Of a stretch of DNA of 64,000 nucleotides, positions 13,990 through 54,159 are shown in pieces. Each line of letters begins with the position of its first letter. The stretch's first letter is position 1. Under the pieces are notes generated by a model. That model saw only the letters and a program-made list of their open reading frames with translations. It was not told where the DNA came from and searched no databases. This DNA comes from Candidatus Marsarchaeota archaeon (GTDB lineage Archaea > Micrarchaeota > Micrarchaeia > Micrarchaeales > Micrarchaeaceae), in assembly GCA_023485295.1 (NCBI GenBank), contig JAMCZQ010000001.1, forward strand, positions 1-64,000. Reading direction: 5' to 3'. Made by a program: the position numbers and the translations under genes.

Positions 13990-14649
13990 ATGCCAAGGGG
14001 TATAAAGGACTTCAAAGCTTACATCTTCGACTGGGACGGCACGCTGAACAGCCCTACGATAATAAACCATCCGTTTTGGCTCAAATTCAAAAAGTTCAGA
14101 TTCATATCGGAATTCCCTCCAGACGAAAAGGAGCTGGCAGCCTCTGAGGAGCGTGTCCTTTTCCTAAAGGCCAGAAAAGACTTCACCGACATTGAGGAAT
14201 CGCTGTTTGTAAAGCTTGCAGACGTAGCGTTCTCAATGCTGAAGCCGAGGTTTCATAATGGCTCAAGGGAGCTTCTTGATTACCTCAACAGCACAGGCAA
14301 AAGCGTGGCATTATTCACAGACGGCGGGCTAAAAAGGGTGTACGTGGAGATAAAGCACCTGAAGGCATTCAATTATTTCGATGTCATAGTGAGCGCGCAG
14401 TCCATAAAGAGGATAAAGCCGGATCCGACAGGCCTGAAGATAATCGAGCGAGTGCTGAACCTTGAAAGCTCATCATGCATATACTTTGGTGACAGACCCG
14501 AGGACATAGCCGCTGCGCATGGCGCAGGCATGAAGGCAGCCGCTATGCTTAACGGGTTCTCCAACCCTGAAGCCCTAAAGGCGGAGAAGCCTGAATACGT
14601 ATTCAATAGCATGGAGGAGGTGCTGGCCGCATGCAGGGGTAAAAAGTAA
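13990..14649 (+). CDS. HAD-superfamily hydrolase (phosphoglycolate phosphatase-like)
   Basis: A 219-residue haloacid dehalogenase fold phosphatase. Motif I is FDWDGT near residues 13-18 with the nucleophilic Asp, motif II is the Thr in LFTDGG, the conserved Lys falls in KRIKPDP, and motif IV is FGDRPEDI with the Mg-binding aspartates. A helical cap lies between motifs I and II. These enzymes remove phosphate from small metabolites such as 2-phosphoglycolate, but the substrate cannot be read from sequence. It starts one base after the leuS stop, indicating translational coupling. Confidence 0.88.
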   Translation: MPRGIKDFKAYIFDWDGTLNSPTIINHPFWLKFKKFRFISEFPPDEKELAASEERVLFLKARKDFTDIEESLFVKLADVAFSMLKPRFHNGSRELLDYLNSTGKSVALFTDGGLKRVYVEIKHLKAFNYFDVIVSAQSIKRIKPDPTGLKIIERVLNLESSSCIYFGDRPEDIAAAHGAGMKAAAMLNGFSNPEALKAEKPEYVFNSMEEVLAACRGKK

Positions 14650-14687
14650 TAAATATATGAATATACATGAATTGGATAGGGATTTTA

Positions 14688-14879
14688 ATGGAAAAGGAAA
14701 AGACACCACCTCCGTGCAAACAGCAAAAAATAAAGGAATTTGACGAAACAGGCATGTTGCGCTACAAGGAAGAGCCGCAGAGCGCTCCAGTGCGCAGGGC
14801 TTCAAAAAGCAATCCTGAGACCGATCCGCTGTACGGTGTTGGGTCGTCCGAGGAAAGGGCAGATGTGGAAAGGTATTGA
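14688..14879 (+). CDS. small hypothetical protein
   Basis: A 63-residue hydrophilic protein (starts MEKEKTPPPCKQQ) with no recognisable family. An upstream in-frame ATG at 14667 exists, but a TATA-like AATAAATATAT at ~14647-14656 would place the transcript start near 14680, so the ATG at 14688 is preferred. It lies between the HAD gene and an uncharacterised gene. Codon use resembles its neighbours. Confidence 0.55.
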   Translation: MEKEKTPPPCKQQKIKEFDETGMLRYKEEPQSAPVRRASKSNPETDPLYGVGSSEERADVERY

Positions 14880-14946
14880 ACAGCCGAAGCAGCCCGTCTG
14901 CTAACCTTTAAATATATTATTCCTAAAATTGATTAAGAGTGATAAA

Positions 14947-15369
14947 ATGATAACAGCATTCAACATATCAAACGTAGAAGGCAAGATATCAGACATGAGC
15001 TCTCTCCCGCAGCAGAGATTCCCAAAGCTCAATATAAATGTAGAAGATGTTTCTTCAAAGGGCAACAAGCTCAATATCTCATATTCGTTTGTGGCTGACT
15101 ACTTCGCAGGAGACGACGAAAAATCTCCGAGCGTTGGCCAGATAAAGCTCAGCGGCACCATAGAGATGGACGAAAAAGCCGATGCCATTGCAGAAGTCAT
15201 CAAGAAGTGGAACGAGAGCCACACGCTGCCCGTAGACATGGCCGAAGAAGTGATAAACGGCCTGAATTTCAGGTGCAGTGCAACAGGCACACTGATTGCA
15301 TATTCGCTAGGGCTTATACCACCACTTGTAATAACAAGGACAAAGATAGAAGAGCAGGGCAAGGCCTGA
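14947..15369 (+). CDS. hypothetical cytosolic beta-rich protein
   Basis: A 140-residue protein without signal peptide or membrane helix until a mildly hydrophobic stretch near the C terminus (TLIAYSLGLIPPLVI). Alternating beta-type patterns fill the first 90 residues. The ATG at 14947 is chosen over an upstream TTG at 14929 because GTGAT lies just before it and a TATA-like TTTAAATATATTA is at ~14906-14918. No family recognised. polB follows on the same strand after 63 bases. Confidence 0.7.
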   Translation: MITAFNISNVEGKISDMSSLPQQRFPKLNINVEDVSSKGNKLNISYSFVADYFAGDDEKSPSVGQIKLSGTIEMDEKADAIAEVIKKWNESHTLPVDMAEEVINGLNFRCSATGTLIAYSLGLIPPLVITRTKIEEQGKA

Positions 15370-33836: not shown

Positions 33837-34790
33837 CTATGCTGAAATGGCTATTCCGAACACCACCCTCACTATGAAGCCTATAAGCGCAGTAACGAAT
33901 GCAGTGCCAAGGGATAGCACGAGCATCTCTCCAACGCGCCGCTTTATGCTTGTATCGCTTATCAGCGCTATCATGGACGAGGCTATGGATAAAACTATGG
34001 CTACAGACACTACAGAGATTGCAATGCCAGCATAGCCTGAAAAGCCCAGTATGAACGGGTATGTTGCTACCAGCGCACCCGCAAAATAGAATATGCCCGT
34101 ATAATATGCTTCGTTGGTTGGCTTTGTAGGCACTGAGCTGGTTTCTTCAAGCGATTCCTGCATGACTCGCTCGGATTTTGACGATATATATGCTCCGGCC
34201 GCCATGGAAAGGGTGCCTGAGACCCCAACAATAATGCCTGTAAGCGCAACTATAAGGCTTGACGTAGCTATCATTGCAAGCCCAGCAATCACTGCAAGTA
34301 TCTCTACGAGGCCGTCATTCATGCCAAAGATTATCGATCTCGTATAGTTGAGCCTTCCCTCGTGCTTTTGTGTTTCCTCAAGCAGCATGCTTTCATGCTC
34401 CTCCTCGTCGCGTATTATTTCGCGTACCTTTTCCATCGTGGATTCTTCAAACTTGACGCTTTTGATCGCGTTTTTGTACTCCTGGAGCCCTAGCCTTTCG
34501 TTCCTCTCCAGCAGCTTTGTTACGAAAGCTATCCCGAAAAGCCGCCTGCCAAGCACGTACAGCCATATCTTCAGCCTTGTCAGCGCGCCAAGACTGACGC
34601 TGCCTGCCCTGACGCCAAGGATTGAGGCCCATATCTTTGTGTGCTTCAGTTCCGTATCCTTCAGCTTTCTTACAAGCTTCTTTGTTTCAGGGTTTTTTTC
34701 GCTCCTGTATATGCTGCTATAAAGCGTGAAATCTGATATCTCATCCTTAAGGAAGTCGAATTCGCGTTCCCTTGCGCTCTTTTTCTGCAT
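33837..34790 (-). CDS. ferritin-like/VIT1 fusion metal transporter
   Basis: A 317-residue protein with two domains. Residues ~1-145 are a ferritin-like helical bundle carrying Glu and His candidates for a metal site (DEISDF, DTELKHTK, NERLGLQEYK, RDEEEHESM). Residues ~150-317 form a VIT1/CCC1-type transporter with five helices and the signature GMNDGLVEILAVIAGLA. This matches the erythrin-VIT1 (MbfA-like) group that moves iron or manganese out of the cytoplasm. Metal choice is inferred from relatives. It is divergent from the TSUP permease gene with only 54 bases between the two starts. Confidence 0.88.
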   Translation of the reverse strand: MQKKSAREREFDFLKDEISDFTLYSSIYRSEKNPETKKLVRKLKDTELKHTKIWASILGVRAGSVSLGALTRLKIWLYVLGRRLFGIAFVTKLLERNERLGLQEYKNAIKSVKFEESTMEKVREIIRDEEEHESMLLEETQKHEGRLNYTRSIIFGMNDGLVEILAVIAGLAMIATSSLIVALTGIIVGVSGTLSMAAGAYISSKSERVMQESLEETSSVPTKPTNEAYYTGIFYFAGALVATYPFILGFSGYAGIAISVVSVAIVLSIASSMIALISDTSIKRRVGEMLVLSLGTAFVTALIGFIVRVVFGIAISA

Positions 34791-36860: not shown

Positions 36861-37226
36861 TTAGCCGCCTATCTGGTCTATGCTTTTTAAAGTCAGTGCT
36901 TTTAGGTACTCTTTCTTGACCTCAATCAAAACGCTCTTTATTATTGTATTGTCCGAGCTCTCTGAAATCTTTGCATTAAGCATTCTTATTATAACACTGG
37001 GCTTTTCTATCTTGATATTGAGGTCAAGAAGGCCTTTCTCAAGCTTTTTAATGTAAGCATCAATATCATCCTTGCTGATCGACGGGCTTTCTACGATCTC
37101 GGTCACCGTTTCGTCAAGCAACTTTTTGGCTCTCTCTATTGCATTCAAGTCTGTAAGCTTGATGTCTTTGAAGCCTGGTTTTCTTTGCTTTGTCCTGCTT
37201 GCCATGTTATGCACTTTTTGCTGCAT
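36861..37226 (-). CDS. hypothetical helical protein, coupled to upstream gene
   Basis: A 121-residue protein rich in Lys, Glu and Ile, predicted helical with no membrane segment. Its ATG overlaps the stop of the upstream gene by one base (TAATG), which implies translational coupling; an internal ATG at 37205 (MASRTKQRK) is an alternative. No family recognised. Confidence 0.65.
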   Translation of the reverse strand: MQQKVHNMASRTKQRKPGFKDIKLTDLNAIERAKKLLDETVTEIVESPSISKDDIDAYIKKLEKGLLDLNIKIEKPSVIIRMLNAKISESSDNTIIKSVLIEVKKEYLKALTLKSIDQIGG

Positions 37227-37714
37227 TATTTGCGCAGCATAGCTTTTGAATTCTTCATGCCGTTAAGCTCCGCCTTTATCTCTTCTATTACAACATTGAA
37301 CTCTTTGCTTGATACAATATCCTTATAAGCCGGATCATTGAGGTTATTGCCCCTTATAAGTGTGCGCGTAAGATGTGTTTCGAAATCCCTTTTCAGGCTA
37401 AGTTCTTCATTCTGCCACAATTTTATCGCATTATCTAGAGAGGTTGCATATTCGTCCGCATTGCCCCTTCTTTTGACGTATGCCGTAAATACTTCACTGA
37501 TTATGGCTATCTGGGTATGCATCTTGTCCAACGTCCTTTCCTTCAACTCTTCTATCCTGCTGGATTTTACTGCAATCGGCTCCTTTTTAATTCTGTATTC
37601 GGCGATTTCAGCTATTGACTTGTATATGATTGTTGCAATACCCTCTTCTTTCTCAACCGGGGACAGTCCAGTGAGTTTTACCTCTACGTTTTCGTAATTT
37701 TTATATCCCTTCAT
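37226..37714 (-). CDS. hypothetical helical protein
   Basis: A 162-residue soluble helical protein. It forms a two-gene unit with the next gene through a TAATG overlap. A TATA-like element on the minus strand lies around 37726-37740. The unit is divergent from the hemQ-like gene, with 113 AT-rich bases between. The two products may act as a complex (inference from coupling). Confidence 0.65.
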   Translation of the reverse strand: MKGYKNYENVEVKLTGLSPVEKEEGIATIIYKSIAEIAEYRIKKEPIAVKSSRIEELKERTLDKMHTQIAIISEVFTAYVKRRGNADEYATSLDNAIKLWQNEELSLKRDFETHLTRTLIRGNNLNDPAYKDIVSSKEFNVVIEEIKAELNGMKNSKAMLRK

Positions 37715-37796
37715 TAGCTCACTACGCCTATTTAATATACCTTTTATTATTTATTTAAATGTTTTTATGAGCCGGTTTATAAATTATTCGGATTAA

Positions 37797-37808
37797 TTTA
37801 TAAATTAA
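37797..37808 (+). promoter_or_regulatory. TATA-like box for hemQ-hemH
   Basis: TTTATAAATTA is centred ~25 bases before the ATG at 37828, predicting a leaderless transcript. The same TTTATAAATTA occurs again about 23 bases further upstream at ~37776-37786, so there may be two start sites. Confidence 0.55.
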
Positions 37809-37827
37809 TATACATACGCGATGCACG

Positions 37828-38469
37828 ATGGAAAATCTCATTTCGGAAGTGCTCTCCTATTCGATGGATAGCACATGGTGGGCGCTGAATGCCAACAAAA
37901 GAAAAGAAGTGCTCGAAAACGCTGCATTGCTGCTTTCATCATGGAAGCGGAAGAGCAATGCGGCAAAGGCAGGCATCTACGCTTCGCTTAGGCACGATTC
38001 AGACCTGATAGTTTGGCTTATGGCCCCTGAAGCGGAGTCAATCCTCAATGCAAAGGCGCAGATTGAAAAGCTGTTTTCGAAATATGGCACACACGCTGAC
38101 GGATTCCTTTCAGTATATGCGCAGGGAAAGGAGCGCCTGCCTACAAAACAGCACCGTTACTTTGTTGCCTACCCGATGAGCAAGCTTCCGGAATGGTACC
38201 TGCTTGGCGAATCGGAGCGGAAAGCCATAGTGGCTGAGCATGTGAAAATTGCGGTTAACAGCAGCCATAACAACGGTGTTATCTCTTATACAACTGAATC
38301 TTTCGGAATAGGCGACAATGAATTTGTGGTTATCTATGAGCTCAAGGACCTTCCCAGTTGGGTCAGCGTCACTAAGGAGCTCAGAAGCGCAAGGGCCAGG
38401 AAGTGGATAAGCAACGAATCGCCAATATTGGTTGGCGCCAATGATCTAAGCGCATTGTGGTGCAAGTGA
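37828..38469 (+). CDS. chlorite dismutase-family heme protein, HemQ/ChdC-like
   Basis: A 213-residue protein of the dimeric alpha/beta barrel family that includes chlorite dismutase and coproheme decarboxylase. Recognisable stretches are KLPEWYLLGESERKAIVAEH, whose final His fits the proximal heme ligand, GIGDNEFVVIYEL, and a C-terminal arginine-containing helix with a final ILVG strand. In bacteria of the coproporphyrin route HemQ decarboxylates coproheme to heme b. Context strongly favours that role: the next gene is a ferrochelatase whose ATG overlaps this stop (TGATG). Alternatives in archaea are detoxifying Cld-like proteins. Confidence 0.82.
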   Translation: MENLISEVLSYSMDSTWWALNANKRKEVLENAALLLSSWKRKSNAAKAGIYASLRHDSDLIVWLMAPEAESILNAKAQIEKLFSKYGTHADGFLSVYAQGKERLPTKQHRYFVAYPMSKLPEWYLLGESERKAIVAEHVKIAVNSSHNNGVISYTTESFGIGDNEFVVIYELKDLPSWVSVTKELRSARARKWISNESPILVGANDLSALWCK

Positions 38470-39365
38470 TGTACGGAGTATTGCTGATGGCTTATGGAAC
38501 GCCCCAAGGGTTGAATGGCATAAGCGACTATTATACAAACATAATGAAAGGCAAAAGCCCCACTAAAGAGCAGCTTAAGCGCCTTACTGACAGGTATAAG
38601 GCCATCGGAGGCAAATCGCCGCTGCTGGAAGTTACAAGAAGCCAGGCCGAAAAGCTTCAGAAAAAGATTGCACGTTCAGATTCTGAGACCAAGGTTTTCT
38701 ACGGCATGAAGTATTCAAAGCCTTACGTGTACGATGCGCTTTTGGAAGCAAAGTCCTTTGACGTGGACAAGCTGATATGCATTCCCATAGCGCCGTTCTA
38801 CTCTGCAATAGGCACTGGAAGCTATTATGAGCATGTGGACAATGCGCTTGCGGCTTTGAGCTACAAGCCGGCGCTAATCAAGGTAGCCTCATGGAACTTG
38901 CAAACAGGCTTAATAAAGGCATGGACCGACTGCGTTTCGGCATTGAAGCTTGGAAAGAGCGACGTAATGGTCTTCACCGCACACAGCATGCCTGCCACAA
39001 AACGCGATGACCTGTCAGTGTACAGGAAGCAGATCCTTCAGACATGCAATGCTGTCCAAAGCAGTTTCGGAAACCGATGGGCATTGAGCTTCCAAAGCGC
39101 TGCGGACATGCCTGGCAATTGGATAGGGCCTGATGCAGGCACCCAGATAAGCGGCCTTGCGCGCAACGGCGTGAAAAGCATTGCAATAATACCGATAGGC
39201 TTTGTCGCGGACAACCTTGAAACGATGTATGATGTTGGCATTGCCTACAAGGCCCTTGCGGAAGGCCTTGGAATGAAGTGCAAGATTTCAGGAATGCCAA
39301 ACGATTCGGAAGGGATAATAGATGCACTTTATGGCGTGTATGCAGATGCGATCAGGCGCTTCTAG
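38469..39365 (+). CDS. hemH: ferrochelatase (HemH/CpfC)
   Basis: A 298-residue enzyme that inserts iron into a porphyrin. The N-terminal strand is GVLLMAYGTP, the catalytic His is in FTAHSMP, and the Glu-containing motif is IGFVADNLETMYD near residue 255. It is short and lacks a membrane-binding extension, as in soluble bacterial and archaeal forms. The ATG at 38469 overlaps the stop of the hemQ-like gene; a GTG at 38457 is less likely. With a HemQ partner the substrate may be coproporphyrin III rather than protoporphyrin (inference). Its last 14 bases overlap the end of the convergent hemE gene. Confidence 0.92.
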   Translation: MYGVLLMAYGTPQGLNGISDYYTNIMKGKSPTKEQLKRLTDRYKAIGGKSPLLEVTRSQAEKLQKKIARSDSETKVFYGMKYSKPYVYDALLEAKSFDVDKLICIPIAPFYSAIGTGSYYEHVDNALAALSYKPALIKVASWNLQTGLIKAWTDCVSALKLGKSDVMVFTAHSMPATKRDDLSVYRKQILQTCNAVQSSFGNRWALSFQSAADMPGNWIGPDAGTQISGLARNGVKSIAIIPIGFVADNLETMYDVGIAYKALAEGLGMKCKISGMPNDSEGIIDALYGVYADAIRRF

Positions 39366-40398
39366 CTTTTATCTGCGTTGACTTGACAATCTCAACAACC
39401 TGCTTAAGGTTCTGGTATGGCGTTTCCTTAAGCACACCATGCCCAAGGTTGAAGATGAATCCGTATCTGTCTCCTGCTGCTTCAAGGATATCTTTTGTTG
39501 CGCGAACCATTTCATCGCCGCCCTTCACTGCAAGCTCTGGGCTCAGGTTGCCCTGTATTGCTACTTTATCGCCTATTGCTTCGATAGCTTCGCCAATGCT
39601 GATGTCAGACCCTATGCTTATTGCGTTGCATCCGAGGCCTGAGAATTCCTTCAAAAATCCTCCTGTTCGCGAAGAAAAGTATATTTTCGGAACGTTTGAT
39701 GGCAGCCCTTCAAATACAAGCTTGGCATAAGGCATTACGTGCTTTACGTATAATTCTTTCGGGAGCAGGCCTGCCCAGCTGTCAAATAGCTGCACCGCAT
39801 CTGCGCCTGCACGTATCTGGGAATGCAAATAGCCCAACGTCATTTCCGTAGCAAATGACATAGCCTTGTGCCATTCCCTCTGGCTGTTCCGCATGAGCCC
39901 TATGCAGCGTTCGAAGGTCCTGGAAGGCCTGCCCTCAAAAACGTAGCTGAGCAGGGTAAAAGGCCCTGCAGCGAAGCCTATCAATGGTATTGAAGCCGGC
40001 AACGCCGATTTTACCGCCTCGATGTTTTTGAGCACATACGGTGCGTTGTACTCGCATTTAAACTGCGACAATTCCTTGAGTTCATCTGCGCTCTCGATAA
40101 GCCTGCCCATTACCGGGCCTATGCTTTCCTCAATCCTAACGTCATAGCCGGATGCCTTAAGCGGTATCATTATGTCTGCGTATAATATCGCGGCGTCTAC
40201 TCCAAGCATTTCTATCGGCAGCATGGTTATCCTAGATGCAGCGACAGGATTTGCTTGTATATCGAGCACGTTTATGCCATTTTTTATCTGGTTGTATCCT
40301 GGAAGATAGCGCCCTGCCTGGCGCATAAACCATACCGGATGCCTTTCAACGCTCTTGCCGAAGCATGCACGCATAAATATGCTGTCCCTCGCTTCCAT
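39352..40398 (-). CDS. hemE: uroporphyrinogen decarboxylase
   Basis: A 348-residue TIM-barrel enzyme that removes four carboxylates from uroporphyrinogen III to give coproporphyrinogen III. Both family signatures are visible: PVWFMRQAGRYLPGY near residues 21-35 and GFAAGPFTLLSYV near 147-159. The catalytic Asp fits ILYADIMIPL. It abuts hemD exactly (hemD stop and hemE start are adjacent), so they are coexpressed. Its presence means tetrapyrroles are processed towards coproporphyrin and not only to siroheme. Confidence 0.95.
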   Translation of the reverse strand: MEARDSIFMRACFGKSVERHPVWFMRQAGRYLPGYNQIKNGINVLDIQANPVAASRITMLPIEMLGVDAAILYADIMIPLKASGYDVRIEESIGPVMGRLIESADELKELSQFKCEYNAPYVLKNIEAVKSALPASIPLIGFAAGPFTLLSYVFEGRPSRTFERCIGLMRNSQREWHKAMSFATEMTLGYLHSQIRAGADAVQLFDSWAGLLPKELYVKHVMPYAKLVFEGLPSNVPKIYFSSRTGGFLKEFSGLGCNAISIGSDISIGEAIEAIGDKVAIQGNLSPELAVKGGDEMVRATKDILEAAGDRYGFIFNLGHGVLKETPYQNLKQVVEIVKSTQIKARSA

Positions 40399-41121
40399 TT
40401 ACCCACCATTTACCATTTTTAGCGCTCCTTCTACGGTATTGCTGCCTGTAAGCTTTCTGATCCTGAAAAGGCTTTTTGCCATGTCATACGTTGCACGGCC
40501 TATGCATATTGCCGTTTTGGATTTCAGGGCCTCGATTTGCCGCGCGTCAATGCTTGCCCTAAGCGCTTCCACCTCTGAAGGGCTGAATAGCATAACATGC
40601 GTTATGCTTGACAGCTCCTTGGGACTAAGCTCAACCTTGTTGATCAAAGTGTCATATATATGGGCTTCCTCCACTGTTGCACCGCGAGCAAGAATTGCAC
40701 CATAGTCGTTTTTGCTCAAATTGCTGCCGAATACCACAACAATTTTGCCTTTTAATCTCTCGGCAAGAAGCCTGGCTATTATTTTCGAAATTCCGCCGGT
40801 TCGCGGCGCAAAGGCAACGCGCACGCCTAAGCCCTTCAATAGCCCTGCGGTGGTTGTGCCGCTTGCAAATACCTTAGATCTGCATTTTTTAAGCGCAGGC
40901 ATGGATGTTTCCATGCAGTGCACAGCGTTCCTGGAAGAAAATATTACGTATGCAGCTGCACTAGCCATCGCGCATAGCTTTTCCTTGTCGATGCTGTTGC
41001 ATTTTATTTTTATTGCCTCTTTTGCCACGACTCCAAGCCCTGACGATCTTATCATATGGATGGCGCCGCGGCTCTCTGCTTCAGGCCTGAGCAACAATAT
41101 GACCGCTTTTTTACCCTTCAT
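40399..41121 (-). CDS. hemD: uroporphyrinogen III synthase
   Basis: A 240-residue protein with the two alpha/beta lobes typical of HemD, which closes and inverts the D-ring of hydroxymethylbilane. Supporting stretches are ILLLRPEAES at the N terminus, VIFSSRNAVHCM in lobe one, VVVFGSN and ATVEEAHIYDT at the hinge region, and VMLFSPSEVEALRA with ICIGRATYDMAKS in the C-terminal part. HemD sequences vary widely, but this order and the immediate hemE neighbour make the call firm. Confidence 0.88.
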   Translation of the reverse strand: MKGKKAVILLLRPEAESRGAIHMIRSSGLGVVAKEAIKIKCNSIDKEKLCAMASAAAYVIFSSRNAVHCMETSMPALKKCRSKVFASGTTTAGLLKGLGVRVAFAPRTGGISKIIARLLAERLKGKIVVVFGSNLSKNDYGAILARGATVEEAHIYDTLINKVELSPKELSSITHVMLFSPSEVEALRASIDARQIEALKSKTAICIGRATYDMAKSLFRIRKLTGSNTVEGALKMVNGG

Positions 41122-52059: not shown

Positions 52060-52278
52060 TATCTTTAATAAATTAGTTACCAAATTAAAGAGCGTGATAT
52101 CTATCTGCATACAATGAGAAATCAAAGGAAGCAGCCTGGAAAAGATATTATCAGTAAGCAGTTGTTTTGGCTGTGTGGATGCCTGACGCTCAAAATAATT
52201 GGCTTTGGCGCCAGAAAGTGCAGTATGCATTGTATCACTGCATCTACAATCCGCGCTTTCTAATAAAAGGTGGCTTTA

Positions 52279-54159
52279 ATGGATATTTCTGGAATCGAGG
52301 AAGCAGGAAAGTTATATGGTACAATTGCAGGAATGCTCTCCCCAACTGGGCGAGGACGTTTTTTTATAAGAGAGGATATTACCAGAATCATTTTTTATTC
52401 TAGTGCCATTGAAGGCAATAAACTTGATGAATCAGAAGCCCTTATGCTCATAAACGGCGATCTTGAGATAGGAAGTGGAAGACTTACCGATTACATTGAG
52501 CTGCTAAATCACAAAGATGTTTACAACCGCATCGCGCAAATAGGCGATAATGAAATTACCTTGGATGACATCATAGAGCTGAGAAAACTGCTTTTTTCCA
52601 ATATTCTGGACAATCTGCATTACGGCCTTAGAAGATCCATGACATCTGTGGGGGACCAGATCACGGAAAGCGCGTCTAAACTACCAAAGGAAATGGATGA
52701 ACTAATAGAGATTCTGAACAGAAAGCCATCAAATGCATCAGATGCATTTTCAAATGCTGTGGAATTTCACCTTCTTTTTGTAGACAAGCATCCGTTTGAA
52801 GACGGAAACGGGAGAACTGTCAGGTTGCTGATGAACTGGTATCTGATCAAAAACGGGCTTGCGCCAATAACAGTTACCAGAGAGGACAAGAAGGAATACT
52901 TCAATAGCATAAGCCCTTTCCATTTCTGCGGTTACACCGATGCGTTTGCATCATTTATGCTTTATTCGGCACTGAAGACAGCCGGAATCCCAGTTGCAAA
53001 GTTCTCTGAAGGAATCGAAAAGGAAAGCATGATAAAGGATTTCCTTTCAATGTTTGACGGAAAGATTGATGAGGCTTCACTCTCCAGAAAGGTTTCGTCT
53101 TATTATTCTTCTGGAAACAAGAAGCAAAAGCTTGGCGCCATATGGATTGCAGGCCACTTAAATGTTCAATCTCCAGAGCTTTCCATTGCAGCCCAGGAAG
53201 ATGACCCAGAAATCGTATCCATGGCATTGCTGGCAATGCAGAATAGGGCTTTAAACGGGTTTGAAAAAAGCATTGAAGAACTGGATAAGTTTACCGAAAG
53301 AATAAGGGAACTGGCAATAGCTGGCAGAGAAGAGCGTGAGCAACTGCTTGCTATAAGCCTTTTGGGTAAAATAAGCGCACTAGATAACGATACTGTACAT
53401 AAGATAATTGAAGGGCAGAAGGATTACCGGATAATAGCCCAGACATTCAATGCGCTTAGGTATAACCAGACCAACCTAGATTCCGTTGCTTTACTGGAGG
53501 AATATTTAAGCAGCAGCAACCCTGATCTTGCCGAAAATGCTTACGCCGCGTTAATAGCCAATGCCCCGGTTCCGCTTATCGAAAAGCACCTAGAAGGCAT
53601 TTGCAACGAAGAGGAAGTGGTAAAGGACGAAATAATAAAATGGCTTAGCAGAATAAGAAAAAAAGCAGGACAGGACAAAACCAGCGCCATGAATTTAGAC
53701 GGCATAGCAAAAATGCTCGTAAATGCAGCCATTAAGGACGACCGCATAAGGATGCTGCTCTTGGGTCATTTATCCTCCGCAGACAGTCTAAATCCTGTAT
53801 ACTTGGATACGCTGAAGCGTATCCTTAAAGATCCGGCGTACAGCGACGTTGAAAAATCATATGCGGCATACTGCATAGGCATCAATATGGGATATGATTA
53901 CCTGCGTTCGGAAACTGGGATATTGGTTCAGAGAACAAACGGGAAGCTTTTGAATATGTCTGCTTTTATTGCGCTGACTAAAGGCAAAGCCAAAAAACGA
54001 GAAATACTAGATGTGCTGGATATCAAGCAGAATTCGATAAGCAGTATTGATGCAATAAGCATGAAGAACATGCTTGAAAAAAACAGATTCGGGACGGATT
54101 TTTTATCGCTGTGCGAGAAAAACTTTTCTGCATGGAACAATATGCAGACAGGGAATTGA
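52279..54159 (+). CDS. Fic/DOC family protein with long C-terminal helical-repeat region
   Basis: A 626-residue protein. The Fic active-site motif is intact: HPFEDGNGR at residues 171-179, with a further Arg at 182 (GRTVR). The inhibitory motif SSAIEG at residues 41-46 fits (S/T)xxxE(G/N), so this is a class II Fic kept off by its own N-terminal helix. Fic enzymes usually transfer AMP to a target hydroxyl. Residues ~260-620 are a run of helical pairs resembling HEAT-type repeats (for example LAENAYAALIANAPVPLIEK), probably a target-binding scaffold. The ATG at 52279 is preferred to the GTG at 52270 because AAGGTGG lies before it. It is part of an island with nucleotide-modifying genes. Target unknown. 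Confidence 0.88.
   Translation: MDISGIEEAGKLYGTIAGMLSPTGRGRFFIREDITRIIFYSSAIEGNKLDESEALMLINGDLEIGSGRLTDYIELLNHKDVYNRIAQIGDNEITLDDIIELRKLLFSNILDNLHYGLRRSMTSVGDQITESASKLPKEMDELIEILNRKPSNASDAFSNAVEFHLLFVDKHPFEDGNGRTVRLLMNWYLIKNGLAPITVTREDKKEYFNSISPFHFCGYTDAFASFMLYSALKTAGIPVAKFSEGIEKESMIKDFLSMFDGKIDEASLSRKVSSYYSSGNKKQKLGAIWIAGHLNVQSPELSIAAQEDDPEIVSMALLAMQNRALNGFEKSIEELDKFTERIRELAIAGREEREQLLAISLLGKISALDNDTVHKIIEGQKDYRIIAQTFNALRYNQTNLDSVALLEEYLSSSNPDLAENAYAALIANAPVPLIEKHLEGICNEEEVVKDEIIKWLSRIRKKAGQDKTSAMNLDGIAKMLVNAAIKDDRIRMLLLGHLSSADSLNPVYLDTLKRILKDPAYSDVEKSYAAYCIGINMGYDYLRSETGILVQRTNGKLLNMSAFIALTKGKAKKREILDVLDIKQNSISSIDAISMKNMLEKNRFGTDFLSLCEKNFSAWNNMQTGN

Follow-up and report, generated by a model that had tools for sequence, protein, structure and literature searches.

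Which heme pathway can an archaeon run when a HemQ-like protein, a ferrochelatase, and two further enzymes of tetrapyrrole synthesis are encoded side by side, and from which precursor would this pathway start? The question is raised by a four-gene block at positions 37828–41121 of a 64,000-nucleotide stretch (hereafter the window), which forms the start of contig 1 (C1; JAMCZQ010000001.1) of a Micrarchaeota genome (assembly GCA_023485295.1, hereafter G000; 885,231 bases, 95.7% complete). A first-pass annotation of this DNA had recognized a HemQ-like/HemH gene pair facing a hemE-hemD pair, and Pfam matches bore out all four genes. Together with a hemC gene located elsewhere on the same contig, the block very likely represents the late part of a coproporphyrin-type heme pathway. 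These Micrarchaeota probably keep only this late half of heme synthesis and take porphobilinogen from a neighboring cell.

The first gene of the block (37828..38469, plus strand) encodes a predicted coproheme decarboxylase of the HemQ/ChdC family and of Thermoplasmata type (213 amino acids; PF06778, E = 2e-35). Its stop codon overlaps by one base (TGATG) the start codon of hemH (38469..39365, plus strand; alternative start at 38457), whose product is a HemH/CpfC-like ferrochelatase of 298 amino acids counted from the ATG at 38469 (PF00762, 1e-66; TIGR00109, above cut-off). The hemH gene converges with hemE (39352..40398, minus strand), the two overlapping by 14 bases. HemE, the uroporphyrinogen decarboxylase (348 amino acids), matches PF01208 (3e-99) and TIGR01464 (330 bits; cut-off 303), and its gene directly abuts hemD (40399..41121, minus strand), which codes for uroporphyrinogen III synthase (240 amino acids; PF02602, 6e-24).

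Relatives were sampled as 245 genomes of the phylum Micrarchaeota, including Candidatus Micrarchaeum sp. A_DKE (G055, which corresponds to the closed chromosome NZ_CP060530.1) and Candidatus Mancarchaeum sp. A family search detected HemQ in 24 of the 245, all belonging to one order. The hemQ-hemH pair facing hemE-hemD was also found in G011, G222, G195, G071, G090, and G055, and partly in G001 and G207; such a recurrent arrangement is therefore not due to chance. In addition, hemQ and hemH lie close together in most of the HemQ-containing Micrarchaeota, the order of hemD beside hemE is the same in close relatives, and in the genus and its near relatives the block is usually followed by hemC. 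In G000 itself, hemC begins at C1:83030, approximately 42 kb from the block and outside the window, and was identified by TIGR00212 (1.7e-77), by PF01379 and PF03900, and by the dipyrromethane Cys motif GCNVP. HemC is present in 20 of the 24 HemQ-containing genomes, and in most relatives it either adjoins HemD or forms a fusion with it. Pairwise comparison of G055 and G090 revealed purifying selection, and no decay, on all five genes, with dN/dS of 0.07 for HemQ, 0.04 for HemH, 0.08 for HemE, 0.13 for HemD, and 0.12 for HemC (a partial alignment of 149 codons), ratios that are approximate because dS is high (1.2–2.5).

The residues of HemQ and HemH are consistent with a pathway of this type. 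The best structural match of HemQ is Thermoplasma TA0507 (3DTZ, 3e-38), followed by actinobacterial ChdC. Alignment with the reference Corynebacterium enzyme CdChdC (7q4f, whose deposited chain is offset by two) placed Tyr115, Trp123, and His138 of HemQ opposite Tyr135, Trp143, and His158, which are the catalytic Tyr, the neighboring Trp, and the proximal His of this enzyme, His118 being its distal His. Thus all three of the former are kept, and they are invariant across the 24 relatives. On the other hand, HemQ scores far below the NCBIfam cut-offs of the bacterial HemQ equivalogs, in keeping with a divergent archaeal lineage, and we do not assign it to the named equivalog. The nearest solved structures to HemH are Bacillus-type ferrochelatases/CpfC (3e-45), and HemH retains both the His of the AHS(M/L)P motif (here AHSMP) and the Glu of (H/N)LE (here NLE). 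Based on its sequence, being nearest to the Bacillus type and grouping with bacteria, HemH is a predicted CpfC-type ferrochelatase. Two differing HemH genes occur in G047 (L067:12044-12940 and 14302-15312), the second very divergent.

The pathway is incomplete at its front end. The genome-wide search for HemA, HemB, and HemC suggested by the first-pass annotation yielded HemC, whereas neither HemA (PF05201) nor HemB (PF00490) was found in G000, a search that did not extend to HemL or ALA synthase; the absence of both points to a pathway truncated at porphobilinogen. HemB was present in only three of the 24 HemQ-containing Micrarchaeota (G047, G049, and G152), and HemA likewise in three (G047, G050, and G152), none of which belongs to the source genus. 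The family search found no HemB in 17 genomes that have both HemQ and HemC, including the closed chromosome of G055. Assembly gaps as the cause can be excluded by this chromosome and by the probability that all 17 lack HemB through incompleteness alone (about 9e-18, the product over the 17 genomes with independence assumed). That the search works is shown by the detection of HemB in 11 of 14 control genomes and in four Micrarchaeota (E < 1e-130). In a comparison set outside the phylum, 24 HemQ-containing genomes of Thermoplasmata and Marsarchaeota, the same search detected HemB in 23, and HemH was present in 23 as well. On the HemE and HemH trees, the presence of HemB requires about four changes, a count that partly rests on incomplete metagenome-assembled genomes, and HemB was therefore probably lost more than once. 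In one relative, G050 (L077), HemQ and HemA occur together with a HemN_C protein, but HemC gave no match, and neither hemE nor hemH lies within the 20-kb neighborhood of its hemQ.

A second gap is the oxidation of coproporphyrinogen. The oxidase had been noted as missing from the window; indeed it is not there, and searches for HemY and HemN_C did not find it elsewhere in G000 either. CgoX/HemY (TIGR00562) gave no match above cut-off in G000, where CgoN (YtpQ, DUF1444) was not part of the search, and the best HemY-like match (15 bits, on C6) is a geranylgeranyl-reductase-like protein. No protoporphyrin-dependent pathway was recognized, as G000 lacks HemN_C and HemY, in a search that did not include HemF, HemG, or HemJ. 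Of the 30 Micrarchaeota examined, only two (G006 and G049) have a CgoX above the cut-off, as does 1 of the 24 HemQ-containing Thermoplasmata and Marsarchaeota. The missing oxidase is thus common to most of these genomes and to Thermoplasmata, and not peculiar to G000. It has been reported that Thermoplasma and Picrophilus contain hemA–E and hemH but neither hemF/N nor hemG/Y, their route being unclear (Storbeck et al.; PMC3004389), and spontaneous oxidation of coproporphyrinogen in air has been measured (PMC10965808). Since HemQ occurs in the same genomes as hemE and hemH, a coproporphyrin route with a spontaneous oxidation or an unidentified oxidase accounts most simply for both groups.

Two candidates for this oxidase were considered and rejected. 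A conserved gene located 3' of HemE-HemH in Thermoplasmata encodes only EF-Tu domain 2, and conserved small genes located 5' of hemQ in the genus have no Pfam match and only very weak similarity to those of the window. In the window, two small proteins of unassigned family (36861-37714, minus strand) are encoded divergently from hemQ, separated from it by an intergenic region (37715..37827) between the open reading frame starting at 37714 and hemQ, in which no promoter was mapped; G055, G071, and G090 have genes of similar size in the same place, with very weak similarity.

The coproporphyrin-route logic that the first-pass annotation saw in this block holds in part: the Tyr, Trp, and His of HemQ, the CpfC-like HemH, and the lack of HemN_C, HemY, and a TIGR04053-type AhbD-like radical SAM protein agree with it, whereas the pathway is truncated at porphobilinogen and lacks HemA, HemB, and CgoX. 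Without HemA and HemB, the cell would have to obtain porphobilinogen from an external source. We somewhat favor a heme pathway divided between cells, in which a host or another community member provides porphobilinogen and the heme serves cytochrome bd. Porphobilinogen would enter from a partner cell, most likely of Thermoplasmata type, and would be converted by HemC, HemD, and HemE to coproporphyrinogen III. Oxidation of the latter to coproporphyrin III would proceed either spontaneously, given oxic and acidic surroundings, or through an enzyme yet to be recognized that would also occur in Thermoplasmata; our confidence in any particular mechanism for this step is low. HemH would then insert iron into coproporphyrin III, and HemQ would decarboxylate the resulting coproheme to heme b for the cytochrome bd oxidase. 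Subunit I of this oxidase is present in G000, where a plausible subunit II adjoins it, and in most HemQ-containing relatives. That porphobilinogen is the imported compound is, on balance, the better supposition. The retained and lost genes, their linkage, the conserved residues, and the selection on the genes in relatives are observed, whereas the enzymatic activities, the transport, the supplier, and the manner of oxidation are inferred.

Several observations weigh against this account. To our knowledge no porphobilinogen importer has been described, and none was identified in this analysis; our literature search likewise found no paper on porphobilinogen uptake. A named Thermoplasmatales host is available only for A_DKE. 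HemC gave no match in four HemQ-containing genomes (G001, G050, G067, and G206; G067 and G206 are incomplete). Finally, HemQ lacks the distal His118 of CdChdC and has Arg103 at the aligned position, within a variable loop, and its mechanism may therefore differ from that of the actinobacterial enzyme.

Other explanations of the truncated front end should be weighed against import. The pathway might be complete through unrecognized enzymes for ALA and porphobilinogen that replace HemA and HemB without being orthologous to them, as the purifying selection on HemC and the many Micrarchaeota genes without Pfam families would allow. We consider this unlikely: the HemB family is highly conserved and was found in four relatives at the E-values given above, HemA is lost as well, the losses look repeated, and we know of no alternative porphobilinogen synthase. 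About equally unlikely is that the partner provides heme itself or an intermediate from further along the pathway (uroporphyrinogen or coproporphyrin), with HemC and HemD serving another tetrapyrrole or disappearing. Mia14 has been proposed to obtain heme from Cuniculiplasma (PMC5498576), and the four genomes without a HemC match would fit such a supply; but HemC persists in the great majority of HemQ-containing genomes at a dN/dS of about 0.12 over the 149 codons, and lies beside or is fused to HemD in most relatives.

The late steps could also be read differently. HemQ might be a chlorite-dismutase-like or peroxidase protein rather than a coproheme decarboxylase, heme then being made by another route: its nearest solved relative, TA0507, is annotated as a putative chlorite dismutase without known function, hemQ does not adjoin hemH or hemE in Thermoplasmata, and the distal His is not retained. 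Chlorite dismutases have a distal Arg approximately 13 residues past the proximal His. In contrast, HemQ has no Arg within residues 139–163, and it keeps the Tyr, Trp, and proximal His and the linkage of its gene to hemH in most HemQ-containing Micrarchaeota, which makes this reading improbable. Less probable still is that heme is made via the siroheme (Ahb) route, or with a TIGR04053 AhbD-like radical SAM protein in place of HemQ. Such a protein was detected in 12 of the 30 Micrarchaeota, four of the source genus among them, and lies within the heme clusters of G006, G047, and G049. However, HemE and HemH are enzymes of non-siroheme routes, and the TIGR04053 protein was not found in G000, where only weak radical-SAM matches were seen and AhbA, AhbB, AhbC, and SUMT were not searched separately. 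The radical SAM/SPASM genes of this family in heme clusters are located at L070:11515-12657, L078:10724-11881, and L067:9971-11071. In G006, the TIGR04053 protein accompanies a full hemA-L-B-C-D-E-Y-H set without HemQ, and may substitute for HemQ there without requiring oxygen.

We also analyzed the origin of the genes. In the HemQ tree, Micrarchaeota proteins of the type found in the window form one clade (99/97) within a group of Thermoplasmata and Marsarchaeota, and a long, fully supported branch separates this archaeal group from bacterial ChdC and from a second Micrarchaeota type. The HemH tree joins Micrarchaeota to bacteria (99/96) and sets them apart from Thermoplasmata (100/97). HemE of Micrarchaeota is also separate from that of Thermoplasmata (90/100), its placement relative to bacteria being unresolved. 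As HemQ is archaeal but HemH groups with bacteria, the block is chimeric and did not arise by a single bacterial transfer. Thus, the acquisition from bacteria considered possible in the first-pass annotation agrees with the HemH tree but not with the archaeal position of HemQ, for which transfer of the whole block is ruled out by the tree and by a pattern scan (43 of 43 loci archaeal). The bacterial sequences in these trees are few and come from plasmid records, and no donor can be named. Five genomes of the same archaeal order (G015, G040, G092, G176, and G224; L055–L059), which also lack HemA and HemB, carry a second, unrelated cassette in the order hemC(D)-hemQ-hemE-hemH, whose HemQ is bacterial-like; this second HemQ type has an origin separate from that of the window.

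Comparison with known systems shows where the pathway differs. It resembles the coproporphyrin pathway of Gram-positive bacteria (HemE, CgoX/HemY, CpfC/HemH, and ChdC/HemQ) in the adjacent HemE, the CpfC-type HemH, and the HemQ with Tyr/Trp/His, but here no CgoX, HemA, or HemB was found, HemQ belongs to an archaeal clade, and the genes form two convergent pairs. Thermoplasmatales (hemA, L, B, C, D, E, and H; PMC3004389; TA0507) share the neighboring HemE and HemH, the same HemQ group, and the lack of CgoX. Unlike G000, Thermoplasmata keep hemB (22 of 22 tested) and, according to the literature, hemA; their HemH and HemE represent another lineage and their hemQ is unlinked. An archaeal ChdC is also known in Haloferax volcanii (PitA, a Cld-ABM fusion, together with Ahb), whereas the G000 block showed neither an ABM domain nor an Ahb-like gene. 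Some relatives, G049 among them, encode an ABM protein between hemQ and hemH; this small, separate HmuQ-like gene (L070:8848-9141, in the same place in L063 and L069) recalls haloarchaeal PitA. Partial heme pathways of symbionts and parasites such as Leishmania and ticks similarly keep the pathway end and receive the precursor from a partner; these are generally known to enter at coproporphyrinogen or later (see also PMC4114063; PMC4821805), unlike the entry at porphobilinogen here.

Two further genes of the window were noted: a rubrerythrin-VIT1 fusion (33837-34790, minus strand), near the heme block and related to iron or manganese handling, and a gene for a 629-amino acid protein with an N-terminal Fic/DOC domain (52270-54159, plus strand).

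Previous work touched on heme in these organisms only briefly. No heme genes were reported for Mia14, leaving the question of where it obtains heme unanswered (PMC5498576); G222 (L061/L096; Candidatus Mancarchaeum sp. isolate clean1801), of the same genus, has hemQ-hemH-hemE-hemD-hemC. Heme goes unmentioned in the A_DKE paper, and a 2025 study states in one sentence, without naming the route, that heme biosynthesis is complete or near-complete in some Micrarchaeota orders (PMC12892359). Our literature search found no earlier statement of a pathway starting from porphobilinogen in these archaea.

Earlier studies described as unknown both where ARMAN-type Micrarchaeota obtain heme and by which route Thermoplasmatales make it (PMC5498576; PMC3004389). 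The pattern described here names porphobilinogen as a testable exchange metabolite between a DPANN symbiont and its partner, with A_DKE available both as a closed genome and in co-culture, and it points to one missing enzyme or spontaneous step, the oxidation of coproporphyrinogen, common to both groups. We tentatively suggest that in acidophilic Micrarchaeota the partner may make porphobilinogen and the symbiont may finish heme with an archaeal HemQ, both sharing a single coproporphyrinogen-oxidizing enzyme that is yet to be identified. If so, the same oxidizing enzyme in both partners would also settle heme synthesis in Thermoplasmata.

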